A DNA stretch of 64,000 bases from NCBI GenBank assembly GCA_902728285.1, contig CACVBU010000028.1:29750-93749 (forward strand), written 5' to 3'. Below the pieces are notes generated by a model that searched no databases, was not told the origin of the DNA, and saw only the letters and a list, made by a program, of their open reading frames with translations. Numbering within the stretch: position 1 is the stretch's first letter; each line of letters starts with the position of its first letter. The DNA is from Clytia hemisphaerica (Eukaryota > Cnidaria > Hydrozoa > Leptothecata > Clytiidae). Below, piece after piece: positions 5,266-62,038 of this stretch. Position numbers and translations under genes: made by a program.

Positions 5266-5718
5266 AGAGTACGAAAGAGATTCCGAATAGTGAATTCATT
5301 ATCATAATCTTGATCAGAAAATTGACAACGAATTGATGTTTGATAAAATATCTATATTTCGAGCATAACTTCACTCATCTTTCAGGATTGTAAAATGTAA
5401 AATTACAAAGTTGCTACTTATGTGAAAAATTGGAAAAAAAAAAAAAAAATGCGCTTATTGAAGGCTATTAAAATTGTAAAATGGTTAAAAGACAAGGTCG
5501 TAATAAAAAGTAGTTAAAAAAGGTATAATTCTCTAGAGGCTTTTAGGCCGTTGTTTAAAATAGGTTTCAGTCTTTTGATATGTAAAGCTTCTTTGTATAG
5601 AAGTGATGACCAATTATCACTGGAATCAATTACTGACGTATTATCATTTACGAGATTTATGTAGATGGAGCGAAAATTAGGCTTTCAATACCAAGCGTCA
5701 GGAGGGTAGTTATAAACT
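5266..5718 (-). repeat. PLE terminal repeat, 3' copy
   Basis: The block from gaaagagattccgaatagtg to tgacgtattatcattta is repeated directly at about 8003-8386. It is also found inverted, and slightly longer, at 8388-8841. It includes a poly-A tract and an aaaatgcgctt segment common to all three. Confidence 0.85.
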
Positions 5719-7204
5719 TGACTTCAGAGCACTCCTTCAAATGTTCGAGAACTGCACTCTCCTTCTTTGTAGCATGCTCTGAGCATCGCGTGAATAAATT
5801 CCTCTCCGTTTTGCCGACATAAGAGGCACGACAACCAGGGCAGATAAATCGATAAACAATGTTCGACTTGAACTTCAAGGGTGTTGGGTCTTTCATGTTG
5901 GTGTAGAAGCCAATTTTGTGTGTTGAATAGATTACTCGAAACATGACATTAGTGTCTTTCTTGAGACAAAACTTTAATTTTCTTTTTAATGCAGAAACAA
6001 GTTGTTCTCCTGTCGGGCCAGCGTAAGGGATACGTAACCAGAGTGTTGTCGGTATGGTATTATCAGCGTTGTCATTTTCAGAGTGTCGGGGACTGGTTGC
6101 GGTTTTAATGATTTTGTTGACGGCAAAGCGAGGAAAACCATTCCAAGAAGCGAACTTTTTGATCAGGTTAATTTCATTTTTCAATTTAGCAGGATGACAA
6201 AGTTTGGTGGCACGGTTGGCAAGGCTAGAAATCCATGCTTTTCGGTAAGACCAAGGAGCGTAGCTATCAAAATTTGTATATAAGCCAGTGTTTGTATCTT
6301 TTCTAAATATAGATAGACCATCTGGTGCAATCTCAAGATCTAAGAAGTGCGGTGTTTCATCTTCAAATTTGTCAACTGTAAATTGAAGATTTTTATCAAA
6401 TTTGTTAAGGGAGCAATGAACTTTATCGATATCTACTGGACGAATGACAAGGAGTGTATCATCAACGTATCTTGAGTAAAACTTTACGATACCAGAATCA
6501 ATATAAGGTTTAATGACAGATTGTTCGAGTTCTGTCATTATGATATTTGCTAGTACAGGGCCAAGTGAACTTCCCATACTAACACCATCTAACTGTTCAT
6601 AGAGAATGTTGTTTGCTGAAAATACGGTTTTTTTACATGTGTCTTGAATTAATTTTCTGAGTGTGTTTTTTGAGATTTTAGTTTGTAACAAGTTCTTGTT
6701 ATAAATTCGATCGATAATGATGTTTATTGTTTTAGATAAGGGTACGTTAGTGAATAAAGAGGTTACATCAAACGATACAAAGACATAACCATCGTCAAAA
6801 AGTTCTTTTGGAATCTGTTTGATTTTTTCGGCAGCATCGAATGAATCTTTAAGTGTGTAGTCATTGACAGTTAAAGGATTAAGGAGGTTAGTGAGATATT
6901 TACCAACAGAATAATGTGTTGTTCCAGTGGTATCAACGATTGGTCGAAATTTAGGTAAGTGTTCATACTTTTTATGGATTTTTGGTAAACCATGAGCTCT
7001 GGCTGGCTTTGCATTTTTCGGTCTCATATCTTTGTATTCATTTTCATCGATTTCATTACGATTAAGTAGGGTTTTGAGGTAACGTTGAATGCTGGTAAGT
7101 CTAGAAGCAGTTGGATCGACATTCACTTTACGAAATTTGGCTTTGTCAGCAAACAACGAATCGATGGAATTTTGGTAATCGGCTATGTCAATCAAAGATG
7201 CCAT
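5657..7204 (-). pseudogene. PLE reverse transcriptase plus GIY-YIG endonuclease, frame-shifted
   Basis: About 515 codons encode the catalytic part of a PLE polymerase. RT motifs are clear: FVSFDVTSLFTNVP near residue 140, MGSSLGPVLANIIM near 210, and the catalytic YVDDTLLV near 246. The C-terminus has a zinc-like CPGC and a GIY-YIG core, RASYVGKTERNLFTRCSEH, with a conserved glutamate region. The ORF runs into the terminal repeat and ends there. Its upstream part is in another frame (7188-7994). At about 7195 the usual PDKGNG motif runs into a stop, consistent with a single lost base. The family is thought to prime at DNA ends or telomere-like breaks. This copy looks recent, with one frameshift and otherwise open. 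Confidence 0.9.
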
Positions 7205-7994
7205 TCCCTTTGTCGGGTTTCAAAATAGCGATTGATTTGCGAAGATTCTTTATCAATTTAATGTGTTTAGAGTCTTTGAAAATTTGACGATCATCGATAT
7301 TAATATAATTAAAAGCAAAACCTCGGAGTAAGTTTTTAGCTCTTTCAACGGAATAATGGCCATTTTTCAAAACTTTCGAACGGTACAGCTGATTCCAAAG
7401 TTCTTCTGCAACAACAAAAGTTTCGGTATCTTTGGGTTGTTTAGCAAGACCATGGTTTAAACCGAATCGTAGCGTTTCATACTCGTCTTCAGATAAGGTG
7501 TGCGAAGATAAGTTAGTGATTATAGTGTTAGGATTTTTTGAGATACCATTCAGACGGTCACGTTCTTTTATCATTAAATCAAGTTTGTGGTTAAGTTTGT
7601 CACGAATAGGTTTGATAAATTTATTGACGCCAATTTTAATTGAATGTTCAATAACAAACTTCCTCATAAAAGTAGCATTACTGTTCAGAGTTTCACGTTT
7701 AGTAAAAAACACTGTCTTGATTTCACGAATTTGTTTGCGTTTCGTTATAATTTCGTCAAGGAGAATACGTCTTTGATATTTTCGTTTCGATAATTGGTCA
7801 AGGTACTTCGTGTTCTTCCAGCGTACAAATTTTGGGAAAACGTTTTGGTCACGACAGTTAATAAGAAAATTTAAGCTTGCCTCGTATCGTTTAAGTTTTT
7901 TCTCCAGTCTTTCCACAGTGGTAGCAATTTTGTAAAGATTTTCATCAGCAGCTCGGAGATTAATCCAAAAACCATTACCAGCTGATAACTTCAA
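7188..7994 (-). pseudogene. PLE ORF N-terminal part
   Basis: This 268-codon frame is lysine- and arginine-rich with a predicted coiled-coil stretch near residues 25-100 (VERLEKKLKRYEASLNF). It ends in LRKSIAILKPDKGNGIFD, the canonical start of the PLE RT core. The next frame continues it after a one-base slip at about 7195. Together they make one polyprotein of about 780 residues, a normal PLE length. Its 5' end abuts the direct terminal repeat at 7995. Confidence 0.85.
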
Positions 7995-8387
7995 ATAAAA
8001 GAGTACGAAGAGATTCCGAATAGTGAATTCATTATCATAATCTTGATCAGAAAATTGACAACGAATTGATGTTTGATAAAATATCTATATTTCGAGCATA
8101 ACTTCACTCATCTTTCAGGATTGTAAAATGTAAAATTACAAAGTTGCTACTTATGTGAAAAATTGGAAAAAAAAAAAAAAAAAATGCGCTAATTGAAGGC
8201 TATTAAAATTGTAAAATGGTTAAAAGACAAGGTCGTAATAAAAAGTAGTTAAAAAAGGTATAATTCTCTAGAGGCTTTTAGGCCGTTGTTTAAAATAGGT
8301 TTCAGTCTTTTGATATGTAAAGCTTCTTTGTATAGAAGTGATGACCAATTATCACTGGAATCAATTACTGACGTATTATCATTTACA
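7995..8387 (-). repeat. PLE terminal repeat, 5' direct copy
   Basis: Nearly identical to about 5275-5655 in the same orientation. The poly-A length differs slightly, so the copies have diverged or slipped. It joins the inverted copy at 8388 within a few bases. Confidence 0.85.
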
Positions 8388-15705: not shown

Positions 15706-16859
15706 TAACTCTTGCTAGGGTAGATCGTCAAATGGCAAAGTCCAAAAATTCAAAGTGTAATATTTTTTGTGAAAATTTAATCTATTGTAAGACATTTTGC
15801 GCAATTTTTAACCTCCTAGGTCAAAAATCCAGCATTCCCCAGGGGGGTCTTTGATTCGCACTATAGCGAAAAATGAGTAAAAATGGCATTTTTTGCCCAT
15901 TTTAAGACTATAAAAGGCCAGGAAAGGGTCAAAATGGTTTCTAAATGGTGTCTTGTACTAATATTCAACATAAAAAGACAAAATAACCCCAGCGAAATCG
16001 CTCAATGTTTCAATTTCAGGCTAAAAATGCTGATTTTCTCCGATTCTGGGTAGCAAAATGCATGAAAGCAGTATTTTAGAGGACCCACAACTTTTACACT
16101 AGTTAAGGTACACACTTGAAATTTTCAGCAATGAAACACTTCAGAGAAAGCTCCAGGAAAAATTAATCTTGAGTTTTCAAAAATTTCCTATAAATCCATA
16201 ATGGCGCCCTAGAAATTGAGTTTTCATGCTAAATGCCAATATTTCAAGCTAAAACTTGGTTTTCTTGGGCTAAAATCTCAAAAATATTTCAAATGATGTC
16301 CTGAAATTTTTTGGTGTTGAAAGTATTCTGGAAATACTCTTGGAGAACCAAAATGGTTTGGGTCAGAAATTTGCCCAAGTCTGCCATTATAGTATTGCAT
16401 TTCCAACTAAAACGCAATATTTAGAGTTTAAAGTCTAATTTTCTCAGGCTAAAATCTCAAAACTGATTTCAAATGGTGTCCTGAAATTTTTTGGTGTTGA
16501 AAGTATTCTGAAAATACTCTGGGAGAATCTAAATGGTTTGGGTCAGAAATTTGCCCTAGTCTGCCATTATGGCATTGCATTTCCAACTAAAACATGATAT
16601 TCAGAGTTAAAGTCTGATTTTCTCAGGCTAAAATCTCAAAAATGGTTTCAAATAGGGTCCTGAAAATTTTTGGTGTTGAAAGTATTCTGGAGGATATACT
16701 TTGGGAGAACCAAAATGGTTTGGGTTAAAAATTTGCCAAAGTCCGCCATTATGGAATTGCATTTCCCACTAAAACGCAATATTTAGAGCTAAACTCTTTT
16801 CAGGCTAAAATCTCAAAAGTGGTTTCAAATAGGGTCCTGAAATCTTTTGGTGTTGAAAG

Positions 16860-17117
16860 TGTTAAATAGGTATTTACCAACCTAGTGATTGCTGATCCTT
16901 GCTTGACCGGATGCAATATAAACCAATATAATAAGTCTTCACCAACAGAAGACTTGATGAACACAATCCAACTTGAACCAACACAAGAATCAATATGAAC
17001 GATGATCAATATCAATTGATCCAAATACCATTTACAGAATACACATAAAGCCCCACTGGCTATCATATATTATTGTTTATCACTTTGTATTATTCATCTA
17101 TAAGGTAGAGATTAACA
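16860..17117. mobile_element. Solo LTR (258 bp) with 5-bp TSD
   Basis: It interrupts a 178-bp repeat unit precisely. It begins TGTTAAATAGG and ends AGATTAACA (TG...CA), with the 5-bp duplication GAAAG at 16855-16859 and 17118-17122. These are the hallmarks of a solo LTR left by recombination between two LTRs. There is no internal coding sequence. Confidence 0.85.
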
Positions 17118-17631
17118 GAAAGTATTCTGGAAATACTCTGGGAAAACCAAAATGGTTTGGGTCAGAAATTTGCCAAAGTCTGCCATTATGGAATTGTATT
17201 TTATTCTAAAACACAATATTTTGAGTAAGCTTGAGTGTTCTTCCTAAAGAAATAAAATTCATAATGGCAGACTTTGGCATATAATATGTCCATTGTGAAC
17301 CACTGTGATTTTCCTTGAGTGTTCCCAGAATACTTTCAAAAGACTTCAGGACCAAAAGATTTCAGGACCCTATTTGAAACCATTTTTGAGATTTTAGCCT
17401 GAGAAAATTATAGACTTTATCTCTAAATATCACGTTTTAGTAGGAAATGCAGTACCATATTGGCGGACTTAGGCAAATTTCTAACCCAAACAATTTTGGT
17501 TCTCCCAAAGTATATCCAGAATACTTTCAACACCAAAAAATTTCAGGACCCTATTTGAAACCACTTTTGAGATTTTAGCCTGAGAAAATCAGACTTTAAC
17601 TCTAAATATCGCGTTTTAATGGGAAATGCAA

Positions 17632-18551
17632 CGGTTAGTGTAAAACACAGGTCACAGGTCACGGGTCACAGGTCACAGGTCGGTCACAGGTCATACAAAT
17701 TACAGACCAGAAAACTGTAACACACTCGTAAAATACAACTCATGACATAAGGTCCTGAAAATATTATATGTAATGGAAATATAATATCAAAATATGTCAT
17801 TTACAAGACTTAAACGACAAATCATCAACCCCAAATATTGACAACAAATGACACTTAAATTATGTAAATAATGGCGTTATCTCAAAGTATGAGGTTTTGT
17901 CCACCAATTAACATCAAAATATTTTTCATGCATAATAGGATGCTGACGCTGCAAGTGGATATATATTAACAGGTTTTGAAAACATTAAATACTCCAAGAG
18001 AGCTGTTTTAGAGATATGAAAATAGTGACGTCATTTTATCAAAAATACAAAGCAGGGGATAAAAATATTGAAACATTTATAAAATATAATCCCATTGATG
18101 CTATTTTCATCAATTCTTGTTATCATACCCAAGGTGATGCATGAGATAAAATGAGATATGACATAGTGATTGTGTAATAGATATTTTCCTGTTAGGGGGC
18201 CGTTTAAAGCAAAAGGTGAGATCAATGTTTTTTAATACGTATTCTTTGTATTTAACATTACGTAATATGCATATAACATTGAAAAGATAATTTTTATTAC
18301 ATGTGTGATGTAGGTGTAATATATAATACAAGTATTACAGGTCCGTGTTATACACGGCATAAAACGCGAAAGCACGTGGATAGATTTTTGGCTTTAAAAT
18401 AGTTCTAGTTCAATAAAATATATTTGGAATTATATTTTTGACATTAACAACTGTTTTTCAAACATTTTTTTTGTGTTTTACAGTACTTGAAGCTGACCTG
18501 TCAACACTGACCTGTGACCTGTGACCTGTGACCTGCGTTTTACACTAACCG
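17632..18551. mobile_element. TIR element with heptamer arrays, copy 1 (9-bp TSD)
   Basis: It starts CGGTTAGTGTAAAACAC and ends with the complement of CGGTTAGTGTAAAACGC. Directly inside each end are tandem heptamers AGGTCAC: about six on the left and four to five on the right, some variant. The TSD GAAATGCAA is exact at 17623-17631 and 18552-18560. The interior is AT-rich with no coding sequence. A ggtccgtgttatacacggc segment near 18341 is matched in inverted orientation inside copy 2 near 60232. The 9-bp TSD suggests a Mutator-like mechanism, by inference. It is nested in the fold-back's right arm. Confidence 0.92.
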
Positions 18552-19257
18552 GAAATGCAATACCATAATGGCAGACTTGGGCAAATTTCTGACCCAAACC
18601 ATTTTGATTCTCCCAGAGTTTTTCCAGAATACTTTCAACACCCAAAGATGTCAGGACACCATTTGAAACCATTTTTGAGATTTTAGCCTGATAAAATCAG
18701 ACTTTAACTCTAAATATTGCGTTTTAGTGGGAAATGCAATACCATAATGGCAGACTTTGGCAAATTTCTTACCCAAACCATTTTGGTTCTCCGAGAGTAT
18801 TTCCAGAATACTTTCAACACCAAAATATTTCAGGACACCATTTGAAACCATTTTTGAGATTTTGGCCTGAGAAAACCAAGTTTTAGCTTGAAATATGGGC
18901 ATTTAGCATGAAAACTCAATTTCTAGGGCGCCATTATGGATTTATAGGAAATTTTTGAAAACTCAAGTTTGATTTTTCCTGGAGCTTTCTCTGAAGAGTT
19001 TCGTTACTGAAAATTTCAAGTGTGTATCTTAAAAAGTTTAAAAGTTGTGGGTTCTCAAAGATGCTGCTTTCATGCATTTTGCTACCCAGAATCGGAGAAA
19101 ATCAGCCTTTTTACCTTGAAATTGAAACATTGAGCGATTTCGCTGGGGTTATTTTGTCTTTTTATGTTGAATGTTAGTACAAGACACCATTTAGAAACCA
19201 TTTTGACCCTTTACTGGGCTTTCATAGTCTTAAAATGGGCAAAAAAATGCCATTTTT

Positions 19258-24080: not shown

Positions 24081-24911
24081 TTAAATTGGTAAATCATTAA
24101 AAAGTTTAGCTCCACTATATTTGAAGCTTTGTTTTCCAAGTTCGAGTTTCATTTTTGAGGTCTCAATCAGATACCCATTGTTCCTTGTTTTAGTATGTTT
24201 TCTCAGCTTAAAATAACCGTTTAGGTTTGAACAAGATTCATTATCAATCGAGCTTTTAATCAAGTTTAGTGCTTCTGCATGGATCAAGTTGAGTATGGAT
24301 GGAATACGTTTCCCCGTCAGTCGATGAGCTCTAGATTCAAGAGATTTAAACTGCTTCTTCTGAGTTTCGGTGTATGTCAGCTTGATCGGGCCTCTGTACG
24401 TCAGAATTGGAACAGTCATCATGGTGAAAATAGAATAGGCTGCATCTTTAGTGAGGTAAGAACGGAGTTTTTGGAGAAGTCTCAGTCGACTGGATGCTGT
24501 TTTGTAGAGGTATCGTTATCGAAGGTTTTTTTTAAGTTTCAGATTTGGATCAACTTTGTTTCCGAAATATTTGTATTCCTGTACGTAATTAATTTGTTGG
24601 CCTCTGTAGAAAACATTAAGGATTTTGTCAATCATTGAGAGACGTTTAGCTGTCCCAAAGAGCATAGTTTCCGTCTGTCCCTTTTTAAAGTTAGCGATCA
24701 ATTCGTTGTTGTCGAAGTATTCAGAAACTTTATTCAAGTCGTGATTCAGATCACTTTCGATTTGCGTTTTCAACTTTCCGTTGCAGTATATTACGGTGTC
24801 GTCTGCGTACATGATGACTTTTGATTTCTCTAAACATTCTGGGAAATCGTTGGATAAGATTAAAAATAGCAGAGGACCTAGTATAGATCCTTGGGGTACG
24901 CCAGTGAACAA
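24081..24911 (-). pseudogene. LINE reverse transcriptase, C-terminal half, frame-shifted
   Basis: 24911-24516 holds the RT palm (GVPQGSILGPL, MYADDTVIYCNGKL) and part of the thumb. 24422-24081 continues after a frame break with the usual C-terminal pattern (QKKQFKSLESRAHRLTGKRI ... GNKLWNDLP-like). The upstream sequence to about 25100 remains readable in part. It belongs to the non-LTR group, near jockey/CR1-like by eye. Confidence 0.85.
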
Positions 24912-25964: not shown

Positions 25965-26825
25965 CCAAATGCACGTGCACCGGACTGGTCATGTCCGGTG
26001 TTTTGATTGTCCGGTGGGAAAAAATATCCTTCTCCGACACCGGACATTCCGACTTCCTTAAGTCAGTGTAGACCTAAAGCTCTAAACCAGCATCTAATAA
26101 CATGAAAACCAGAATATATGATTCTTCAATGGGAATCAAAACTATAAAGTGCACTTACAAACATTAATTTGTCAGATCTAACAAAATTAATAACTGCACT
26201 GTCATCATTGACAATAAACCAAACGATTTTCTTTCAAGAGCCTTGCAAACATTCCAACAACTTCCATCGAAATGATCTATCACAGCTCAGTCTACCATTT
26301 TTAGCGCGGTCCGAGGATTGAGCCGAGAACGCTCCGCGAACTCCTGCGCGGGTGAAAAACTTCAATCTGTCAATTATTTTCTCAAGCGAAGAGTACGCGA
26401 AGCGATTCTAGCTTTACGATAGTGCCGCAGGTCATCAATGGATAGTATTCAATTATCATTATCCCTTTATTTTCATTCCTAGAACTTTTGCAAAAAAAAG
26501 GAAAAATAGAAAAGTTGTATTTTTTACTGCTCTATTCACATACTGAATTTGAAAGATCTTCTATGTAGCATTTTTTGCAAACGTCAAAAAGCTGATTTTT
26601 GTCCCGTCTTTTACATTTTAGCGACTTTGGCTTAAGTGCTTGAGTGCAGCATAGGGTACATCAAAGTCCACCAAACATGCGATTCCCGTAATTTTTGTGT
26701 GAAGAGTTAGGTCTACACTGTAAGTCCGGTATAGTAAATTGACCGGTGGTAAAAAAAATCTCATTTTACACCGGACTTTCGCCTGTCCGGTGTTCGTTAA
26801 GTCCGGTGTGTCTGCAGGGTCCTGC
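25965..26825. mobile_element. About 860-bp element with long inverted ends rich in CCGGAC dyads
   Basis: The left end (25968-26078) and right end (26703-26825) are imperfect inverted repeats of about 110 bp. Each has several GTCCGGTG/CACCGGAC motifs and a shared inner boundary (cagtgtagacctaa versus ttaggtctacactg). The middle 600 bp is unlike either end and has no coding sequence. TSDs were not resolved. Confidence 0.75.
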
Positions 26826-26935
26826 CCTGGACTCATCAGCAGCACTGTGTACTGCACCCTGGGCCTGGTTGATTGTGGATCAAACTGAGAGTAGAGAAGT
26901 GGACTGAAGGGAAATTCCCTAGAATATATCTTCAC
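26822..26935. repeat. Dispersed MITE-like repeat, copy 2
   Basis: It matches 13985-14115: gcactgtgtactgcaccctgg, gatcaaactgagag and gaagggaaattccctagaa. Here it directly joins the CCGGAC element, so the two may be parts of one composite. Confidence 0.7.
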
Positions 26936-27050
26936 CTTAGATTTGAGGTTTGAGATCTGCTGCCTTCAACTTTTCCCAGTTAAGTTGGCGCAGCTCCGGC
27001 GTAACATTTCCCTCCTTTCCAGACCAGACAGAGACTGGATGTTTAGCTAT

Positions 27051-28230
27051 CGGCAAGTACAAAAACGCCTACTACCTACTACTTAATACTTACTACCTAC
27101 TACTTACTACCTACTATAAAATAGCTCAAAACGGCTCGAAATTACCTTTAAAATATTCAGCATGTTAAAATTAGCAAAATCTGAAACTTTGGGTGGTAAA
27201 AAAGTTAAAACTTCTTCTTTTATCGTACTTTGAAGACTTCAAAATATTTTCTCTCTTTTATTTTGTTTATGACTTTTTCCCGCGCTTTTTCTATAAAGTT
27301 TACAGACGCACGTCTTCGTAGAAGAGATAAATATTTCCTTTGCACACTTATTTATTCATGTCAGTTTTATTTATAAGAATCGATCAATCTAAAAAGTTAA
27401 AATACTTTAAGTAAGTAGAGCCCTATGTTTTACTGGGTACTAGCTGAAAATCCTTTGACATGTCTTTGACATTTATTGTTATTGACAAAATGACCCTTTT
27501 GAACCAAACTATTGACAGGGTCGTTAAATATGACCTTTGTAGACTTCATTTTATGTAGCAAAAATTCTTATTGTGCTCAATAAGATGTTTTCAATATCGC
27601 AAGGTAGAAATTTTCAGTAGGAAAATACTACAAAGAGCTGTTTTAGAGGTGTCAATTTGACCATGTCAAAGTATTGACGAAATGAAATTTTTGATAAAAA
27701 TATTGACCCAGTTAATGAATATTAAAAGCTTCGCAAACCAATTCCAAGAAATAATATTTTGGCAACATTTGATATGATGTAGATCATACAATAGGATAGA
27801 GATAGATTGACCCCCATTTATATTACAGAGCCTTTTTTAGACATTTACGTGTATTCTTATCGTCTTATAATAAGAGTCATAAGAGGGAGTATGCTAGGAA
27901 AAAGGAAAGTTCTTATAATAAGAGTCAAGTAGGTTTAGTAAAAAGAAAAAGCAAGATAATGGCCTTTTGTTTTATACTTCAGTATACTTATATGAGGCGA
28001 AGAGAATATTTACTCACCACGTAAATATGCTAAATATTCTTTTAGATAACACTTTTTTCAAGTAAATATAAAGCAAAGACTTAGTGTGTTAGCATTCAGA
28101 TATTACAAAACCATTTTTTTTAGAATATAGAGATTTCGAACAAGCGAAGGAGAGTTCTGGTCTGTAAAGTATACTAACTGAGTAGGTAGTAAGTAGTAAG
28201 TAGTAGGTAGTAGGCGTTTTGTACTTGCCG
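27051..28230. mobile_element. TIR element with CTACTAC heptamer arrays (10-bp TSD)
   Basis: Left end CGGCAAGTACAAAAACGC; the right end is the complement of CGGCAAGTACAAAACGC. Both are followed inward by tandem heptamers CTACTAC/TTACTAC (about seven on the left, five to six on the right). The TSD GTTTAGCTAT is exact at 27041-27050 and 28231-28240. The 1180-bp interior is AT-rich with no coding sequence. The terminal box shares the pattern CGGnnAGTnnAAAACGC with the elements at 17632 and 60017, but the heptamer differs. Confidence 0.92.
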
Positions 28231-28984
28231 GTTTAGCTATATAGCCGCTATAGCTCAAATTAAACGCCTTCGCAGAGAAATCGACGCATGCGAAGGAATT
28301 ATAAAAAGTAGTCGTGACTTTGAGGATCACCTTAAGAAACAGCTTGAAGATAAGGACGCAGATCTCCAACTCTTGAAAAATGATTTGAAAGCTGACCCCG
28401 GCCTGCATACACTCGAGTTTGCTGAAAAGAAATTCGAACGAAAGCTTGACGAATTCAAGGACAGTATCCTGTCAACAATAAAGAACGAATGCCAACAAGC
28501 TATGAAATCGTATTCAGAAGCCACAAAATCTGCTCTCCCTCAACAACCGACGAGTGACACGAGCGGAATCAAACTTGCTATTAAACAAGCCAGAGACGAA
28601 GAGATCGCTCTTGAGATGGAGAAGAGGAGAGAGCCACGAACATCATCGTTCACGGAATAAAAGAAGAAGAACAGGTATGCGATAATAGTGACAAAAATAA
28701 TCATACTAGGGACTGTGAATGGGCTGATCAATTAGTTAAGGATTTACATGTTTCTTCTAAGATCAAAAAAATATTTAGAATAGGTAAGAAACCAAATCGT
28801 CCACTGTTAAATTGCCTCGATAGTGAAGATGATAAACTTAAGATCATGGGAAATCTCCCATCACTTAAAGGTAACGATACTTATAAAGGCATAAGTATCA
28901 CAGAAGATCTATGTAGGTCCCAACGTGAAAAGTATAAAGAGCTATCACAACAGGCGAAAGACCTAAATGATGACCTAGAAACCG

Positions 28985-43014: not shown

Positions 43015-43140
43015 CTGGACGATTATGTTAGTAGCTTCCTCTACAGGTACTGTCGGATAGAGGTTTACTACGTTTACTACGTTTACTTACTTTGTCGAGA
43101 ACGGTTATGATCGTAACACTTTAACCCGTATCGCAAACGA

Positions 43141-43705
43141 TTACGACAGAACCAGGAACCAGACAACCGACAATCGAAATGATCCAGAGCAACTACCAAT
43201 CGTTAAATTACCTTGGATACCTGGTCTGAGCCCAAAACTGAGGAAATCCTTCCGAAATGCTGGGTACAGAACAGTGTTCAAGAGTGGTTCAAATCTAAAA
43301 ACTTTGCTAACTTCTAAGAACAAAAGCCGACTACCACCTAACAGTCACCCTGGTGTGTATATGATAGAATGCGAATGTGGTAAAAGATATGTTGGCGAGA
43401 CCGGGTTAAAGATATCCACACGTGTCAGCCAACACAAAAAGAACGTTGAAGATGAAAAATGGGACATTTCGGGTATAACTAACCATGCTAAAGACTGTAC
43501 CCAAGGACTTAATTGGAACGAAGCTAGGCTTTTAAAGACTGAAGAGAACAAATTTGATAGAAAAGTGCGAGAAGCATTGGAAATCCAATTCCGTCAGACG
43601 GCGCCACATAGTGACCATGGTCTTAATTTAGACGATGATCAGTATGTGACACCTAGGTTTTGGAAGCCAATGCTCTCGCACATTAGGGAGAAGACACTAC
43701 ATTGA
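43141..43705 (+). pseudogene. Inverted second copy of the PLE GIY-YIG C-terminus
   Basis: Open from 43274 and readable from about 43090: VYMIECECGKRYVGETGLK, DISGITNHAKDC, then WNEARLLKTEENKFDRKVRE and a stop at 43703-43705. It matches the minus-strand copy with few changes, but this copy is in one frame where the other slips, so it is closer to the ancestral text. Confidence 0.88.
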
Positions 43706-49979: not shown

Positions 49980-50190
49980 AATATCCTCATTTGCAGGCGC
50001 TTTTTGGCCAAAATTTGTTCAAAACAATTTTTCTTTCGGGCTCCGTCACGATTTGGGTATTGTCATTTTGCATCCCTATGCAGAATTCGGATAAACTATT
50101 AATGGGCCAATGTCGCGAAAGCTGGTAACAGACGAATGGACGAACTAATGGACAAACAAACGGGGCACTGACCTTGACGGCCGACGGGGA
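49980..50190 (+). repeat. Dispersed repeat family, copy 6
   Basis: ggctccgtcacgatttgggtattgtc, tgggccaatgtcgcgaaagctgg, then (gacgaatg) units and a gaccttgacggccgacgggga end. Same phrase order as 49040-49180. Confidence 0.7.
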
Positions 50191-50239
50191 CGTGTCACTG
50201 AAGTTTATTTTGAACAATTTTGATGAATTTCAGGGGTTA

Positions 50240-50360
50240 TTTAAGCAAAGAAACAAAAAATTTCATTTTGACGGGAACTTATTTTGGCGAGTGAGCAAAA
50301 TATTTAATTTTGGCGGGAACTATCCGCCAAAATTAGCTCCCGCCAAAATAAGTTCCCGGT
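50240..50360. repeat. Short inverted repeat with TTTTGGCGGGAACT arms
   Basis: gacgggaacttattttggcg (50269) is mirrored by cgccaaaataagttcccgg (50342-50360), with a second internal pair ttttggcgggaact / agctcccgccaaaa. Probably a small MITE of about 95 bp. Confidence 0.75.
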
Positions 50361-50627
50361 ATATCTGGTATCTGGTAAATTTTGGACCCTGTCAGAGAAA
50401 AAATACAAAAAAATTCCGATTTTCAACCTGAAATTAGCCAAAATGACTATAAGTAGACGGAAAATTGAAAATTTGTTAATTTCCACCCTGAAAATTGTCA
50501 AAAATTACCAAAAGTTGACCTGTCAGATAAAAATCTTGAAAATTATTAAATTTAAGACCCTGTCAGATATCTTCAGAGCCTAAAAAAGGGACCCTTACCA
50601 GCGGCACATCCCCAATTTGCCTAAGTG

Positions 50628-50657
50628 AGTGCCCCCCCCCCCATGCGGGGGGGGGGG
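50628..50657. repeat. C-run/G-run hairpin
   Basis: ccccccccccccatgcgggggggggggg: a near-perfect hairpin with a 2-4 base loop, likely troublesome for polymerase and assembly. Confidence 0.85.
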
Positions 50658-51299
50658 CAATCCAAATCAATCTAACTCAATCCAAATATGGTTTTAGAGA
50701 TGAGACACCCGGAGGAGGCTTTAGGGCAGCTTCAACATCCAAAAGACTTTTAGTGCGTTCAGGTACAGCGTAACCGGCGTGCGACGCCGGGTACCGGCTA
50801 GTTTCTATTATTGAATTGAAAACTAGAAAAACATTTTTTGAATGAATAAAAAGAGAAATAAGAACATCTATCAACATTTTATAAGACATTTACGCTTGTC
50901 GCTCGCTGTGTTTACTTGATGTTTTTCGCGTTTTGGAAGGTTTTTTCTGAGTATAAAGAGGCACAAAATGAGCGAAATAGAATTTAATCTAGAATTTACA
51001 GTGGCCCATATGGAACCTTTAAAATCTTTGATTTACCGGAAAATTGTATCATACAATCTAAATATCGAATTACAGAAGTCATCGAGAAACCAAAGCACTT
51101 AAATCTTTATTTCCACCATCCTGGTGATGGACCACCATATTGACAAATTTTCAAAAAAATTTCATTTTTCTCTAAATAGGACTAAAAAATCAAACTTACT
51201 CCAAAAACTTTATTCCAACGCTTTTGATTGACGATAAGATTTTCTTAGGTCTAAAAAGAGACTGGACCCGGCGACGAAGTTGAGCTCGTCTTTCATACA

Positions 51300-51500
51300 C
51301 CCCCATGTCACAGACCCGCTGGGCACCCCCACCCGCTGAAAAAAAAAGCCCAAAATTTTGTCCCCGGGGAAAAAAACGGGCTAAATTTGCCTCCGGGGAA
51401 TCCCCACTGAAAACTTTTAATTTTTCTAGATCCCCACTAAGTAGCTCTTCAAAATTTTTATTTCCATGCCGGTCCCCACTGAAACTTGAAGATTTTGAGA
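51300..51500 (+). mobile_element. Fragment related to the CACCCC...CCCCACTG MITE family
   Basis: cacccccatgtcacagaccc, then gggaatccccactg, tccccactaag, gtccccactg: the spaced tccccact phrase is the complement of the agtgggga phrase in 2160-2445. Ends are incomplete. Confidence 0.55.
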
Positions 51501-51559
51501 AAACCCCGCTACCCGCCTATGTTAAAAAACATCAACAGAATTTATACAAAACTTTAGTT

Positions 51560-53195
51560 TGAAAACTTATGTTAAAAAACTGCTAACTGCTATTCTATCT
51601 TTGATTAACTCTTAACTGATAATCTTTATCTTTAAGACTGACTGTTCATTGTCAAGCAACTTCATCCAGCCAGCCAATTTTTTTTAACATCCAATTTAGA
51701 TTGTCTACCATATTTGTTTTGATTTTGAAATACCTTTAAATATATATTTTGCACGCTCGCAAGCTAAGCGAAACAAACTGACAGATTTCTTTACCTAAGT
51801 AGACGCGCTCAGCTAGGCTAGAAAATCCCGATTTTTTGTTATGAACATGCCTGTCTAGAATGTGAGATACGGGAAAAACTGTTCACAGTGGTTTTTAAAA
51901 CCTTTGTGCTCTTCATGCAGTTTTATGGAGTTTTGTTGATTAAAATGGGTTGAAAATAGACTTCTGTTGACCCTGAGAATACTTTAATGGATTTTTATCA
52001 GTGTCAGTTTGATGTTTTGTAAACTGTTGTGATTATGATGAAAAGGAAGACAGAGAGAAAACAAACTTGGAAAACTTTGCAAGAAGCTGAGTCCTGAGAG
52101 GGACATGTTGTTTGTCTGGATTTATTTCTACCTCAAGAAAAAAGAACAGTCATAAGACGAAATTTATACAAGGGAGAGAATGGATATTGTCATTGTAGAA
52201 ACTCAAAAATTATGGAAATGATTTGCTTTGAATCTTGTTGTGAGGAATTTTTGGAGGATTTTATTTTGTCCATCATGATACAGCATGACCCATGGCCTGC
52301 AAAATACAACAGCAGCAGAAGCATATGATAGGGCTATCTAGTGACCAACAAAGACAAAATTGTTGAATTGATTGCATATGATACTGAACCTGTCAAATAG
52401 TTCCGATATCAAAGAGATTGTAAACAGACTTCTCAAGACCATGAATGTGATTTTTGTTATCAAAATTATGAATCGGTCAATGATATTGATAATTTGACGT
52501 GCTTCTTCCCAAACTCAGAGCTCAAACATCAAACGGCATTTCTTGAACTAACTTGGGAATATGTTTTAAATTCATTTTTGATGGATTATATTCCTGTTCC
52601 GCTATCATCCTGACATGCATATATACACAAAGTAAAGAAACCCAAGCTATGATTTATAATAAGTACCAAGAATTCATTTGCTTGACTGAGAAATGTTTTT
52701 CATTCTTTTTGGAATTATTGTGAATTATTTTATGTTTTGGCTGGTGTCTCTTGGAATTTTAATGAAAGTGACATAAGGAGAAATAAATGTAGAGGCATTA
52801 TATTACTGTTTTTCTAGTTTTTACATTTTATTTCATATTTAATTTTGTTGAAAAATGTCCATAAGCTTCATTAAAGCTTGATAATAGATTTTTATTTTTC
52901 AAAACAAATGAACAACTTTGACTCAAAAAAGCTTCAACATAACTTTTTTTTTCTCTCACAGAGGTTTTGATATAATAGATTATACACAAAATTTCTAACA
53001 ATTTTCTTTTTCATCTCTTTTGTATATTTTTATGGCTCTCTCCCTTTGTGAGGCTTGTGATATTTTCATGTTTTTTAATAGAAAATGTGTACATTATTGC
53101 TCCGGCCTAGGAGCCTTTAATTCTCTCTTCCGACAAAAACGGTCAAGACATTTTTTTTTTGTTTATCTAATCCGATGATTTATTCCGATTTAATA
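51560..53195. other. No gene recognised
   Basis: Long AT-rich interval. 52020-52400 has scattered exon-like words, but no frame stays open with splice sites. Confidence 0.4.
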
Positions 53196-53600
53196 AAAAC
53201 GGATTATCTGGATTCTGATAATATTGTGATTTGATTGGCCGAAAGTATTTAGAAAAAGATGGCTGCCGAAAGTGGGCTTTAGCTGACTGTGTAGCGAATG
53301 GGCAAATCTCAGTGGAAAATTGATCATTTCCATCATTATTCATGATGTTTTGGACATGATTTATGAGAAGTTTGATGCATACTGGTTCTCTAACAATGTG
53401 GAAAGACTTTGGAGAAATTTTGGCCATGAATCGTCAGCTGATCGAGTGCTTAAATCTTGCATATGGCTAACTTCTCTTCTAGACGCACAAAAACCATAAA
53501 ACTCTGTAACTTGACAATGAAACTTCCAAACACACAGCCATTGGAATTCAAAAGAAAATACTAAAATTACAACATTACAGTGCATTTGAAAACGATCTGA
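53196..53600. other. Overlapping open frames on both strands, unresolved
   Basis: On plus, a frame from about 53298 to 53500 (DVLDMIYEKFDAYWFSNNVE, later ADRVLKSCIWL) ends in a stop. On minus, 53427-53167 is open for 86 codons. Both read somewhat like protein, and neither has a partner exon I can prove. Confidence 0.25.
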
Positions 53601-53610
53601 GTAGTTTTTG

Positions 53611-54300
53611 TGGTGTTATGTGTATGGCTGAAAATGATCATGTTTTGTATTCATCATTATGTTGACTAGCGACCGTTCCTTTTGATTTTTAAACCGACAC
53701 AGATTTTTTACAAACATATCACTATGAGAATTCAATAAAGGATATTAAAGCACAATTCCTGTGTAAATTTGAACAAGAATGGAGAAATTTTTACAGTGTT
53801 ATGGCTGAAAGTGATCGCTTTTGGACTTTGTCGTAACTTCATCGTGGCTGGCGACCGTTCCTTTTGATTTTTCAAACCCGAAACAGATTTTTTTTAAACA
53901 TATCACTATGAGAATTCAGTAAAGGATACTAAAACACAATTCCTGTGTAAATTTGAACAAGATTAGAGAAATTTTCACAGTGTTATGGCTGAATATGATC
54001 ATTTTTGCAATTTTGGACTTTGTTGTAATAGTAATTTCATATCGCGGCTGGCGACCGTTCCTTTTTATTTTTCAAACCCGACACAGATTTTTTACAAACA
54101 TATCACTATGAGAATTCAGTAAAGGATACTAAAACACAATTCCTGTGTAAATTTTAACAAGATCGGAGAAATTTTCACAGTGTTATAACTGAAAATTATA
54201 ATTTTTGGACTTTGTCGTAATTTCATTGGCTGGGGCGACCGTTCCTTTTAAAGATTTTTCAAACCTGAAACAGGTTTTTTCCAAATATACCACTATTTAT
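53611..54300 (+). repeat. Tandem repeat of about 185-200 bp, four units
   Basis: Each unit has tgttatggctgaaaatgatc, gcgaccgttccttttgattttt, acacagattttttacaaacatatc and cacaattcctgtgtaaatttg. Units start near 53611, 53797, 53980 and 54181; the last is truncated. Confidence 0.88.
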
Positions 54301-54334
54301 TACATACACACTATTGTACCATTTTATTTGGTTT

Positions 54335-54560
54335 ATCAAGTGCATGTGTAATCACTTAGAAGAACTAAACTTCCAGCTGGTTTATTTATTCGTTAAGATT
54401 ATTTCTCATACTCGCTCTGCAATAGAATTATTACTTTGCTTTCTGATCTGTTCTGATTAGTAGTTTGTGGGCAACGTTCTAACACAACAAACTCAACAAA
54501 CTCATCTTTTTAATCTCTTAAGCCGGAGCTTCCAGCGCAGCTGGTTTATTATTGTTGAGA
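54335..54560 (-). repeat. Dispersed repeat, copy 2 (inverted match to 4566-4800)
   Basis: Runs from tgtgtaatcacttagaag to ccggagcttccagcgcagctgg and matches the complement of copy 1 with a few substitutions and small indels. Confidence 0.75.
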
Positions 54561-55249
54561 TACCTATTTATTCAAAAAGTGAATGGATTTTAAAAGAAAT
54601 TGTGAGATCTTTTCTTTTTCTATCATAACTTTTTTAGCTATACGGTTTTTAATTTTATAAGCAACGGAGTGCTAAAGGGCTCAGGCCTCAAAATGGCCTA
54701 AAAGCAACTTGGCTTAGGAACTCTAGACCTGAGTATGAAAAACTTTTAAACTACTAGGAAACCCATTACTTTCCTTTCCCACTCTGAAAAGACCCTGAAA
54801 TCTTGCTATATTACGACCAAAAAACTGCTTTTTTACTGTCAATAATTTGAAATTTGAGACCATATTTAGCCAATCTAGAGGGTCCTATTTTCAAAAATTT
54901 TAACAACCATGGTGGCGCCTCCTTAGACACTTATGTAGCCGTTACGTCATCATACCAGAGATACACCACTCTTTTTAAATCCTAAACCCCCCCCCCTGTA
55001 AACGTAATCAAATACAATCGAATCCGAAAAAAGTGGGGTAATATTAAATCGAGAGTCGATTGCTCGATCTTGTACCATTGAGCTAGGCTGCTCATTAGGA
55101 TCATGGTATACAAAATTTACGTCCGAGATCATGAGGACGTTGATCTCATCAAATATATATGGCAACTGTCCTAGGAAAGTAGCCACTCAAATACAGCTTG
55201 TCTATTTCTTGTTATAGCTGTCATGTTAGCAAATAGTTGCTATTCTACC
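54561..55249. other. No gene recognised
   Basis: A 78-codon minus frame (55186-54950) is the only open stretch and has no motif. Its A-box-like ctagctcaatggta is discussed among rejected items. Confidence 0.35.
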
Positions 55250-56340
55250 CGTTCAAGATGAAATGTCTATGTTTGGAAATTTTGGCCGAATGAACTTAGG
55301 GAGGAAATGATATATAAGTAATTCACCTTAATGAGCCTCATTGACCCAATCAAGACTGGGAACACAGTCAGAAATAAAAGGGGGTTTTGTGACATTTCTA
55401 CCTTCTGTCATATCTGATACCATATCTAGTGGAATTTTGAGGTTACCATATCAAAACTTTGAAGAACTCAAGTATAGAAATTTCTCGTGGATTTAGAAGA
55501 AACGCGAATTTAAGAGGTTACTTCAATCCTTAGTAATATGATATGGTTAAATCGAGGTTACCCAAATGAGGTTACCTCATTCTAAAGCTTATAAATCAAT
55601 ACCTACTGAAGCAACATTGCTCAAAATTTAAATATGCCTCAAGTAGGCCTCATTCTAAGCAAAAGCTAATTTGGATTTCTTATAAGCTGTATTTTTGGGG
55701 CTAAATTGAGGTTACCAATTCACAATTTCCATAAACCCCTTTTATCATCTAATTGTCTTCAAAAAAAGTGGATATTTTGTTGGCAATTGGTTTGATAAAG
55801 GTAATAGAAGCTAAATTCATCAAGAAAATTATGACTGATAAACAAAAAGGTTGTATATTTAAGGTTACTCTTGTAGAAAAGCACCATTTTCACTGTAATC
55901 CTGTGTCAAGTTAAAGCCAATAAGGCTATTAATCAAAGATCAATATTATTTGTTTTGCATGACTATAACATCAAATCATAAACTAAATCACATCTCAAGA
56001 TGGATTATTAGAAGTAGAAGAAATCAGAATCATTAAAATTCAAATTTTGATGGGTTTTTGAGGTTACTACAATCCACCGAAAAGTAACCTCAAAAATCAC
56101 ACCAAATCTTCAATATTTTTCGCACCTTTTTTGACCAAGTGTTGCCATGTCAGTATAGAGTATGCTCTCAAGTTTTTAGAGGTTAAAATAATTTTTACTA
56201 AAAGATGTGGTGTTTCAAAGGTTACCCTATAAAAATGATGGTAACTTTAAAAATACCCCATAAAATCTTCCGAAAAATTTATGACGATACCGTGCTAAGA
56301 CATCGACCCTGGGTGTAAAATTTCAAAGCCTAAAAATGAT
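55250..56340 (+). repeat. Block enriched in GAGGTTAC motifs
   Basis: About a dozen (g)aggtta(c) or complement motifs occur, for example 55438, 55517, 55551, 55568, 55709, 55860, 56060 and 56089. They have no fixed spacing, and no TIRs or ORFs were found. The element at 19258-20137 shows the same motif enrichment. Confidence 0.6.
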
Positions 56341-56529
56341 TATTTATGATTTTATTCTAAATTTACCAAAAACTTTCCAAAAATGTCACACAATTTTTGA
56401 CTGTGATCCTGGGTGGGAGGAAAGAAAAATGTTATTATGCATTATGCATCCATATAATTACATAAAGATTGAAATAAAATTGCTTGCTTATCACACTTAC
56501 TGTACTGTTTCAACAAACTTGGAAAAAAA

Positions 56530-56693
56530 AGAAAATTTCGAAATCCCCACTGAAATTTTTATTCTAATTCTGTGTCCCCACTGGTATTTTCTGTCTTTGA
56601 AAAATCCCCACTGGATTTCCAAAGAAAATTTTTTATCCCCGGTGAAATTTTAAAAGCCACCGGGTCACTGAGACAGGGGTGTTTTCATGTAAC
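56530..56693 (+). mobile_element. Fragment of the CACCCCTGT MITE family
   Basis: Repeated tccccactg phrases and a right end ccaccgggtcactgagacaggggtg, matching the right TIR of 2160-2445. The left end was not found. Confidence 0.7.
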
Positions 56694-56870
56694 CTTCACA
56701 GAAAGTACAGTGCGTTTTAAAGAAAGAAGTACATCATATCTCGATAAGCAATGATGGACATCCAAGAAATGGTCTGAATGGTCTGAATGTTTTCGGGGGA
56801 ATCTTCGAGAGATGTCCTTCCCTGTGCTAGTGAGAGTAAGGTCGAATTTTTGTAAATGCTCACAACTTAC

Positions 56871-57035
56871 CCGAGACGAATGATGCCATTGAAGTACAAT
56901 AGACATTCATCAGCAGACTTAGTAGCCAAATCTTGAAAACCACTTATATGACTTGTTCAAGTGACTCAATACTCAATCTCAAATGCACTTCAGGTTCTGG
57001 TAAGCAAGTTCGTCACTTCCAATCATCTCCTTCTG
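56871..57035 (-). CDS. Two candidate coding exons, unrecognised
   Basis: 56931-56871 (acceptor ttttcaag, donor gtaagt) reads LATKSADECLLYFNGIIRLG, a convincing protein-like sequence. 57035-56979 (acceptor gattttag) reads QKEMIGSDELAYQNLKCI and then stops. The first could continue after a 49-bp intron into EGHLSKIPPKTFRPF (about 56821 down). I do not recognise the protein. The second could be a terminal exon of the gene at 58152-59311 by phase. Both are short, so the calls are tentative. Confidence 0.35.
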
Positions 57036-57257
57036 CTAAAATCAATTCATGAAAAACTTGTCAAAACACAAAACAACTCCTAGGGAAAATGACTAATTCG
57101 CAAGAACACATACAATCGTTAATTAACATATTAGATAAATAAGAGGTATCACTAAAACTAAGAATTGACAGTTTTGCTATTTGAAGAGGCTTTTGTACTA
57201 CTGTAAATTTTATTGTGTCATCTTTAATACCCTTTCTTTTCGGAGTTTGGAAGATTA

Positions 57258-57447
57258 CTCTCGGGTACCTAAAAGCCGCCCCCCCCCCCTCGCTTATTAA
57301 TTTTTGGGAAAATGTTTTTGAAAGTTCCCTCTTTTGTCCTAATTCAGCTGTATTAGCCTCCTTTTCAAAAATTTTCCACCCAGGACATTTTTATTCCAAC
57401 CCCCCCCCCCCCCGCTTATTCCAATCCGGCTATTAGGTACCCGAGAG
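57258..57447. mobile_element. 190-bp MITE, TA target duplication
   Basis: CTCTCGGGTACCTAAAAGCC at the left, ggctattaggtacccgagag at the right, flanked by TA on both sides (57256-57257, 57448-57449). C-runs sit inside both ends. Tc1/mariner-like. Confidence 0.88.
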
Positions 57448-57449
57448 TA

Positions 57450-58150
57450 GTATGAGAGCAGTCATCTGTTGCTCATAAAACAACTTCCACATAATATTTT
57501 GTGGACGACTTCGACAAAGAGGTTTCAAATTTCAAGCTAATACAAATAATGTAATCAATATTTGGAGAAATCATTTTAAGCCAATACATAATTATGGGTA
57601 ATAGGGGGGGGGGGGTTGAAAGACATATCTCTTCTCTTCGTAATTTTTGGATTCGGTAAACAGCATATGAGCATGATTTTACAACTTTCGAAAGAAATTA
57701 GAATTGATACAAAATGAACTCATCAGTGGTCATGTTTGTTTATTTGGTACAATCATGGAAGAGGTTTGGAGATGTAGTGAAGTGATCACGAAAGTGGCGA
57801 TGATTAGGAAAGAGCAAGTTATTTTGATAATGATGCATTAACTCGAGTGTTTACAATGACGAAATAAGACTGGGTGATCGTTCATTCAGTAGTAGAATAT
57901 AACCTACTTTTAGAAAATCTGTTACTAAAAGAAATATGATATCCCACTGCGTTGTTTTGAACAGAAACATGAACAGCGTAGTTGGTCGTTAGTTAGATTG
58001 ATTAAATCTATTACTTTGCTTACTGTTGACATTATAATCAATTCGTACTCCATGATACTCAAATGATTGTAAAATAAAAGAGCATTACCGTGATACCAGC
58101 AGGGGTCATTTAACTGTCTTCGCCTATTTTCCCATGTTTGTCGACGTATT
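57450..58150. other. No gene recognised
   Basis: AT-rich, with a 13-G run near 57605. Confidence 0.4.
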
Positions 58151-58151
58151 C

Positions 58152-59311: not shown

Positions 59312-59571
59312 CTGAAAAAATGTCCACACAACATACTGCCTTTTGTCTATGTATGAAAATTAGGGATTAGGGACCCTAGGGATTCATTCCAATACATTTT
59401 TTTTACGATCATTTGTCATTTTTCATTTGATAGCTGACGATTCGAAAAAGATGAAACTAGAAGTACTATAATTCAAATTTTGTTTTTTGTGTACACTGTA
59501 TGTATGAAAATGATCAAGAAATGTGGGATTTCTAAGTTCAATTTGTTATTCTATTTAAAATGGGTACAAAT

Positions 59572-59966: not shown

Positions 59967-61327
59967 GCCGATTCAAGTTGTTATCTCTCAGTTTTTGCTA
60001 GAAGTCGAGCCTATTCCGGTTAGTGTAAAACGCAGGTCACAGGTCGCAGGTCGCAGGTCACAGGTCACAGGTCAGTGATGACAGGTTAACTCTAAACAAT
60101 GTCATTGCAGAGGAAAATGTTTGGAAAAGACAAAGAATTATCAAAAACATAATTCTCAAGCAATTTCATCCATATAAAACCATTTCAAACATCAAAATTT
60201 AACCATGTGCTTTTATCGATCTTTCGCAGTTTGCGCCGTGTATAACGCAGACCAGAAAATATTTGAAACCATATTATACGTATAACAGGTATATTACATA
60301 TTGTAATGTTTGTAATGTTATATGATGGTTACATATAATAAAACACATCGCTCTAAAACTAACTTCTCAGAGAACTCACGAGCTTCTGACTGGTGTAATT
60401 TTATATCCAGCCATATTGTTATCATCACATTCGGCATGCTGAATATTTTTGGTGTTTTTCTCTTGTAAGACATGATATTTTGTAATTCTGTCAATATTTT
60501 TGTCAAAAATTGTCATTAAGTCATTAAAATGACAATTGAATAATTAATTAGTTTCATCCTTCTAAAACCACTCTCTTAGGGACCTCACAAGCTTCTGATT
60601 GGTGCCGTTTTATATCCATTCACACTATCTACATCACATTCTGTATTATAAATATTTTTCGTTTTTTTGTCTGTTCTTGCATCATATTTTATGATTCTGT
60701 TAATATTTTTGTCAAAAATTGTCATTAAGACATTAAAATAATAACTGAATAATTAATTAGTTCCATCCTTCTAAAACCACTCACTTAGGGTCCTTGCAAG
60801 CTTCTGTTTGGTGCCATTTTATATCCATTCACACCATCCACATCACATTTTGTATAATAAATATTTTTCTTGCTTTTGTCTTGTTAGGCATCATATTTTA
60901 TGATTTTGTCATTATTTTTGTAAGTAAGTGTCACTATGTCAAAATAGGTTGTTATTCTATTCAATTGTCATTTTATAATATCTAAATAGCATGTATTACT
61001 ATTTTGTAATTTAATGCGCTATGTATTGATGTTATGTTATGTATATGTTATGATCTTTTTTTCTTCCGGTCTGCACTTTGTTGACCTGTGACCTGTGACC
61101 TGCGACCTGTGACCTGTGACCTGCGACCTGTGACCTGTGACCTGCGTTTTACACTAACCGAGCCTATTCTCAGTCACTGGCAAGACGAAGCCTTCATTCG
61201 AATTAGAGAAAAAAAGAGAGTTGAATACATAATACAGTACTCAAAAAGCCAAAAAGATGAAAATAAACAAAAAGTTATAAATATCGTGAAAAAACCAAAC
61301 GCTAAAGGAACTAATGGGAAGGGTTGA
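59967..61327 (+). pseudogene. Terminal coding exon split by a TIR element
   Basis: After acceptor gatttcag the exon reads PIQVVISQFLLEVEPI (59968-60016). The 1144-bp element follows. The text then resumes LSHWQDEAFIRIREKKRVEY and ends in VKKPNAKGTNGKG with a TGA at 61325-61327. Removing the element and one 9-bp duplication restores a single frame of about 70 codons. With the element in place, translation would stop inside the left heptamer array. I do not recognise the protein. If the gene is real, this allele is broken or the element is spliced around. The upstream exons of this plus-strand gene were not found. Confidence 0.5.
60017..61160. mobile_element. TIR element with AGGTCAC heptamer arrays, copy 2 (9-bp TSD)
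   Basis: Both ends are CGGTTAGTGTAAAACGC (right end inverted), followed at once by tandem AGGTCAC/AGGTCGC: six units on the left and nine on the right. The TSD AGCCTATTC is exact at 60008-60016 and 61161-61169. Inside, a unit of about 205 bp is repeated three times (60330-60960: ccttctaaaaccactc, gcttctgattggtgcc, tttatatccattcaca, ttttgtcaaaaattgtcatt). No transposase is present. The right array is open in the frame that enters the exon downstream (repeated TCDLRPV). Confidence 0.93.
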
Positions 61328-62030: not shown

Positions 62031-62038
62031 GACAAGAT

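Follow-up and report, generated by a model that had tools for sequence, protein, structure and literature searches.

Three small elements in the window (the whole 64,000-nucleotide stretch of Clytia hemisphaerica DNA analysed here) represent a group of heptamer-ended elements that number in the hundreds in the genome, are small and non-coding, and fall into at least five families (A, B, C, D, and E) with a common end plan. We regard it as reasonably probable that they belong to the foldback kind of cut-and-paste DNA transposon and are non-autonomous (MITE-type), with MULE (Phantom-like) transposases as their most likely movers.

Three elements in the window

The elements lie where the sequence-only reading had placed them (17632-18551, 60017-61160, and 27051-28230), with inverted boxes, heptamer arrays, and perfect target-site duplications (TSDs) of 9 (A2), 9 (A1), and 10 bp (B), in keeping with the 9–10 bp claimed. 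The terminal pattern they were said to share is exact in four of the six boxes, and the left boxes at 17632 and 27051 deviate from it. The features are as follows.

17632..18551, no strand: element A2, 920 bp, non-coding, inverted box and array ends, 9-bp TSD
17623..17631, plus strand: A2 TSD GAAATGCAA, left copy
17632..17648, plus strand: A2 left terminal box CGGTTAGTGTAAAACAC, reads ...AAAACAC, not exact
17649..17693, plus strand: A2 left heptamer array, AGGTCAC/GGGTCAC, one unit shortened, AGGTCA last
17703..17712, plus strand: A2 inner motif CAGACCAGAA
18508..18534, minus strand: A2 right heptamer array, three AGGTCAC, then AGGTCA
18535..18551, minus strand: A2 right terminal box CGGTTAGTGTAAAACGC
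18552..18560, plus strand: A2 TSD GAAATGCAA, right copy
27051..28230, no strand: element B, 1180 bp, non-coding, box and array ends, 10-bp TSD
27041..27050, plus strand: B TSD GTTTAGCTAT, 10 bp, left copy
27051..27068, plus strand: B left terminal box CGGCAAGTACAAAAACGC, one additional A
27069..27117, plus strand: B left heptamer array, CTACTAC/TTAATAC/TTACTAC, CTACTAT as final unit
28155..28164, minus strand: B inner motif CAGACCAGAA
28181..28213, minus strand: B right heptamer array, CTACTAC/TTACTAC, final unit partial
28214..28230, minus strand: B right terminal box CGGCAAGTACAAAACGC
28231..28240, plus strand: B TSD GTTTAGCTAT, 10 bp, right copy
60017..61160, no strand: element A1, 1144 bp, non-coding, box and array ends, 9-bp TSD
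60008..60016, plus strand: A1 TSD AGCCTATTC, left copy
60017..60033, plus strand: A1 left terminal box CGGTTAGTGTAAAACGC
60034..60074, plus strand: A1 left heptamer array, five AGGTC(A/G)C, then AGGTCA
61064..61073, minus strand: A1 inner motif CAGACCGGAA
61082..61143, minus strand: A1 right heptamer array, eight AGGTC(A/G)C, then AGGTCA
61144..61160, minus strand: A1 right terminal box CGGTTAGTGTAAAACGC
61161..61169, plus strand: A1 TSD AGCCTATTC, right copy

Four of the five exact box matches in the window are ends of these elements; the fifth (24764-24780, minus strand) stands without an array, within an ORF that by eye resembles a reverse transcriptase. The ORFs at 5657-8084 and 43061-43705 of the window also look, by eye, like reverse transcriptases with a GIY-YIG-like end and are Penelope-like in appearance.

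The window’s A2 and B insertions are found again on C76, with 99.2% and 99.9% identity and identical TSDs; the matching parts are ~16000-18700 and 26000-28500 of the window against L047 and L017 (both C76). The C76 stretch where A1 would be expected (L096), examined for an empty site of the A1 insertion, gave no alignment to window positions 50001-64000, and C76 is either a haplotig or a recent duplication with a breakpoint. Since it repeats the A2 and B insertions, the genome-wide counts given below are inflated by allelic or duplicated copies.

Genome-wide tie of the box to the heptamer array

Patterns were counted on both strands of the 417-Mb assembly (951 contigs), with allelic or duplicated copies included. 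The box CGGNNAGTNNAAAACGC occurred 313 + 306 times versus 14 + 15 for the reversed control, and the box followed by two in-register NNNNYRC heptamers 274 + 273 times versus 0 + 0, so that 547 of 619 exact boxes carry the heptamers in register. Two related patterns, CGGCARGTACAAAAYGC (200 + 183 occurrences in the whole assembly) and CGGTTGGTTCGAAACGC (63 + 64), had control counts of 0. Two outcomes had been named beforehand as speaking against a common family, boxes with no link to arrays and randomly varying TSD lengths, and neither was observed: the tie is as given above, with a control of 0, and the 43 scored TSDs are all 9 or 10 bp. Together, the box-array tie and the regular TSD lengths clearly favour a common end plan. 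The expectation of a conserved box with a variable heptamer was likewise borne out by a near-fixed box, family-specific arrays, and regular TSDs.

When public DNA was searched with a 31-letter box + heptamer pattern, stretches from 33 prokaryote and 2 viral contigs were returned, and in none of the 35 did the period of 7 continue: identity at lag 7 over 42 bases was 0.14–0.46 there versus 0.74–0.91 in the window. There was also no exact inverted partner within the sequence examined around each match. These matches resemble chance and were therefore rejected as relatives.

Families and design of the ends

Read as CGG, heptamer 1, heptamer 2, and array, the ends of the families are as follows.

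Family A: CGG TTAGTGT AAAACGC + AGGTC(A/G)C
Family B: CGG CAAGTAC AAAACGC + CTACTAC/TTACTAC/TTAATAC
Family C: CGG CTAGTAC AAAACGC + AGG-rich units, some of them 6-mers (single element seen)
Family D: CGG CAGGTAC AAAATGC + ATAATGC/ATATTGC/ATAAAAC
Family E: CGG TTGGTTC GAAACGC + AGGA(C/G)(A/G)C

At 17 bp, the box is as long as CGG followed by two array units and for the most part shows their pattern too; heptamer 1 of A (which ends in GT) and that of E (which ends in TC) are the exceptions to NNNNYRC. As the box fits CGG plus two heptamers, the array in effect begins at base 4. Up to the first break, the arrays proper hold 0–10 in-register units. Intermediate boxes, CGGCAGGTCY with B-type units, occur as well; at C329:29970 and C456:758086, a D-like heptamer 1 (CAGGTCC/CAGGTCT) stands before a B-type array (CTAATAC, TTACTAC, CTACTAC). 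Family A splits into subfamilies A1 and A2, which are 67% identical over 283 columns, the copies within them being 94.8–98.8% (A1, n = 7) and 91.3–98.4% (A2, n = 5) identical.

An inner motif, CAGACC(A/G)GAA, lies 54–139 bp from the terminus. Scanned with at most one mismatch in 28 elements taken from 34 of the scored pairs, it marked one end but not the other in 27 of them, and shuffled ends contained it in 31 of 2800 cases. Family D lacks it at the one-mismatch threshold. In further pairs, scanned over the outermost 110 bp of each end, it was found at exactly one end in six of six E pairs and at neither end in four of four D pairs.

Target-site duplications and nested insertions

Scoring with lengths of 8–13 or 6–13 bp and at most one mismatch allowed, we found a TSD in 43 of the 46 pairs examined (with one mismatch in five of the 43). 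Family A had one in 22 of 23 pairs, C in its single pair, and E in six of seven, and all 29 are 9 bp long; the 14 from B (nine of 10 pairs) and D (all five pairs) are without exception 10 bp long. Two of the 43 pairs (L017 and L047) are duplicates of window elements, and the three pairs with no TSD are L009, L012, and L101/L102. The length of the TSD is set by family, with no exception among the scored pairs.

One E element is nested in a B copy (L014, 1091-1967, TSD TAAGAGAGA), and this is a true insertion, as the empty site is known: the joined L014 flanks match the B copies L036 and L018 gap-free over 140 and 117 columns, respectively, and over the same stretch the other B copies have two (L019), six (L016 and L056), and 10 (window copy) gap columns. 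Moreover, a D pair is nested in a B pair at C276:1028642-1030675, and its ends have the 10-bp TSD ATTAGAAAAA. These nested insertions, E in B and D in B, give a relative order of family activity.

Array switch between A2 and E

The bodies of A2 and E align over their full length with 669 of 834 positions identical (80%). Their boxes differ at four positions, counted between the E and the A box, and position 4 of the array unit is T in all 201 tallied A units and A in all 61 tallied E units, the latter coming from six elements, with the tally restricted to units that match (A/C/G)GG..(A/G)C. The innermost E unit, on the body side, is AGGTCA or AGGTTA in eight of 12 ends and AGGACAG in the other four; the presence of the switched base in the innermost unit of these four ends counts against the explanation preferred here. 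The difference is best read as a concerted turnover in which the arrays of the two ends changed together and separately from the body, and homogenisation without selection could have brought it about.

Search for a transposase

The autonomous partner expected to exist elsewhere in the genome did not emerge from a comparison of transposase domains with the 426 distinct heptamer-type ends among the matches listed, a few of which are box-only chance matches. For the 91 MULE matches (PF10551), one pair of match and listed end was no more than 5 kb apart, with 0.93 expected by chance, and the gene lies outside a complete element. No FLYWCH match (PF04500, 21 matches) came as close as 15 kb to a listed end; PF20700 (83 matches) gave two pairs within 5 kb, with 0.85 expected, both of which their position or orientation places outside the elements, and PF12762 (68 matches) gave one, with 0.69 expected, in which the match is on the outer side of the end. 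As no transposase turned up between the heptamer-type ends listed, we infer the superfamily from the layout and the TSD, which make MULE the most likely assignment.

The long copies (L009-L015, L055, and L056) do not encode a recognised transposase and were rejected as autonomous copies. L009 contains a Pao-type retroelement ORF, L010 and L011 contain reverse-transcriptase ORFs, and L012, L013, and L015 have no ORF longer than 110 aa; the insert in L014 is the nested E element, and in L055 and L056 the B ends flank DNA whose longest ORFs have no Pfam match. An orphan B end (L032) was set aside as well, there being no second B end within the stretch examined; it is accompanied by a THAP piece, by ORFs that are hAT- and Harbinger-like in appearance (by eye), and by MULE/SWIM-like pieces (also by eye) that match none of the Pfam MULE models. 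FLYWCH+MULE genes exist elsewhere in the genome. The MULE-domain genes of L050-L054, which have no heptamer-type boxes, were discarded as partners. One of these stretches, L050 (C144:802500-808500), encodes ALS2CR8, MULE/ZSWIM RNaseH-like, and SWIM domains, each in a different frame; it may be a host gene.

A 16-bp-array family in the same genome

Another array-ended family, noticed first in L053 next to a FLYWCH+MULE gene, has 16-bp units (GGACAATTCCCCGANC) in inverted pairs ~0.8–5 kb apart (L053, L057-L060; C22, C760, C306, C793). Six pairs of a 16-bp array and a MULE match within 5 kb were found at five loci (C22, C33, C74, C691, and C793) versus 0.07 expected; as C22 supplied the pattern, the independent loci are four. 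Three of these loci (C22, C33, and C793) also have a FLYWCH match. The TSDs, read by eye, are 9 bp in L057 (GCACCAACG) and L059 (GTGTTATTG) and ambiguous, 8–10 bp, in L060. L059 has 16-bp arrays at both ends and broken FLYWCH and MULE frames inside, together with a nested stretch that by eye resembles a reverse transcriptase but whose longest ORF has no Pfam match.

This family resembles the heptamer families in its inverted tandem-array ends and 9-bp TSD (L057 and L059), whereas its unit of 16 bp, its GGTATCC/GAATCCC-like ends, and the MULE genes adjoining it at five loci set it apart. Because its ends lack the heptamer box, the correspondence is one of layout, an analogy and not homology. 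The 16-bp arrays adjoining MULE genes indicate that a transposon with array ends can, in this genome, be a Phantom-like MULE. A 15-bp tandem array (GAAAATTGCCCCCCA) at positions 83-232 of L054, ~1.3 kb from another FLYWCH+MULE ORF, is perhaps a third array-ended Phantom-like family.

Comparison with known systems

The layouts of Tm1, Muta1, and Muta5 show that this kind of end is already known, and the statement that no described family has it was too strong, as foldback-type MULEs combine a terminal motif, tandem units, and TSDs of 8–10 bp. MULE TSDs have been given as 8–11 bp (PMC6446971), a range that holds the 9 bp of 29 and the 10 bp of 14 of our 46 pairs; the terminal inverted repeats (TIRs) consist of a terminal motif and short tandem units in variable number, as in foldback-type MULEs (Phantom).

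Tm1, a Mutator/Foldback (Phantom) element of Meloidogyne, is described as having a terminal CGGTTAA, GGA, units of 13–15 bp, and an inner purine motif, with a FLYWCH+MULE transposase and a TSD of mostly 9 bp (8–10 bp in 45 of 53 elements; PMC3169594). According to that description, it shares with the heptamer elements one end that starts with CGGTTA, an array of variable unit number, an inner motif after the array, and non-coding members (one of 1080 bp), but it differs in its unit length, in the GGA between motif and array, in its end motifs (CGGTTAA / CCTACCC), and in having a known transposase-bearing copy (PMC3169594). The heptamer elements, by comparison, have 7-bp units and boxes that are alike at both ends.

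For Aedes aegypti, subterminal tandem repeats of 9–15 bp are reported in 10 of 12 long-TIR MULE families, among them Muta1, with a 10-bp terminal motif, nine 12-bp units, and more than 300 putative non-autonomous derivatives (PMC5225508). As reported there, Muta1 and Muta5 resemble the heptamer elements in a terminal motif of 8–10 bp followed by nine subterminal units, TSDs of 8–9 bp, and hundreds of non-autonomous derivatives, in which, for Muta1, the unit number varies. Unlike the contiguous heptamers, the 12-bp units of Muta1 are separated by 3–4 bp, and an active autonomous copy of it is known; Muta5 has 15-bp units, and both mix 8- and 9-bp TSDs within one family (PMC5225508). Tetris of Drosophila, described as a non-autonomous foldback element with a TSD of 8–10 bp, was put in Mutator without a transposase copy, as here, but its units are ~220 bp long (PMC4079207). 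Galileo, a foldback element of the P superfamily, also has tandem TIR units, which according to its description contain extra binding sites of the THAP transposase, but it has a P-type transposase and long TIRs (PMC3688188).

Among the titles and abstract openings searched, to which Repbase and most subscription journals did not belong, none dealt with 7-bp units and a heptamer box, and a sequence-string search of open papers returned none of the boxes. The layout itself being known, three features set these elements apart: the 7-bp units are contiguous and keep register with a box that is itself largely of their pattern, one box plan serves at least five families whose units differ, and the length of the TSD is fixed by family. 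The heptamer elements form a real and well-delimited group of foldback-type MITEs, probably of the MULE superfamily.

Proposed mechanism and rival explanations

In the proposed mechanism, each end is CGG with a row of 7-bp units. CGG and the first two units, the near-fixed 17-bp box, would most likely serve cleavage, and the next units (usually 3–9), which are family-specific, are most likely repeated candidate binding sites for the DNA-binding domain of the transposase. The inner motif at one end would give the element its polarity. Binding by the tandem units of Foldback and Phantom ends was termed untested in a 2013 paper (PMC3688188). Beyond this, we tentatively suggest, with rather more doubt than conviction, a two-part end code in which CGG and two near-fixed heptamers cleave while a changeable row recognises; the row and parts of the box would switch together, presumably following a changed protein, while the body persists, and the box subtype would go with a cut staggered by either 9 or 10 bp.

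The heptamer rows might instead be functionless minisatellite expansions, with recognition by the 17-bp box alone. Tandem units readily expand and contract, the unit number is broad (the 0–10 in-register units given above), and a concerted change could equally be homogenisation. However, A, B, D, and E all retain the 7-bp length and stay in register with the box despite their different units (C mixes in 6-mers), arrays stand at both ends, the box too fits NNNNYRC save for heptamer 1 of A and E, and the change seen in all 61 tallied E units is absent from eight of the 12 innermost ones; on balance, we hold this explanation to be unlikely. A host factor, the other reader suggested for the array by the sequence-only reading, seems very unlikely. 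Repeated AGGTCAC amounts to AGGTCA direct repeats with 1-bp spacing, which we take to be a DR1-like nuclear-receptor motif, so the family A array would be a row of such sites; the one open paper matched by a string of the A array concerns PPAR-regulated genes. Among the main array units, however, AGGTCA is confined to A and is missing from those of B (CTACTAC), D (ATAATGC), and E (AGGACAC), which makes a host factor improbable as a general reader.

The same kind of element could also be moved by a non-MULE transposase, such as a Merlin-like or an unrecognised DDE family. This would agree with the lack of MULE and FLYWCH genes inside heptamer-type ends among those listed and with the IS1595/Merlin-type domains in the genome (the 68 PF12762 matches). 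The usual TSD is 8–9 bp for Merlin (IS1016/IS1595), 8 bp for hAT, and 7–8 bp for P, with 7 bp for Galileo; the scored pairs, which have 9 or 10 bp only, do not fit hAT or P/Galileo, and the 10-bp TSDs of families B and D exceed the Merlin range too. The single PF12762 match near a listed end, on its outer side, is close to the number expected, and the combination of arrays and 9-bp TSDs accompanies MULE genes in this same genome. Therefore, a non-MULE mover is quite improbable, and a MULE (Phantom-like) transposase is the mover that we prefer.

Implications

The family-fixed length of the TSD separates 9-bp from 10-bp cutting inside one end plan. With their alignable bodies, differing boxes, and units switched at one position, A2 and E would constitute a natural experiment on the function of the unit. 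If the two-part code is true, families would split by re-coding their ends after a change in the DNA-binding domain of the transposase. DR1-like rows are present in the window at 17649-17693, 18508-18534, 60034-60074, and 61082-61143, and family A arrays occur at hundreds of ends in the genome. By spreading such rows through the genome, family A may be a source of regulatory sites.
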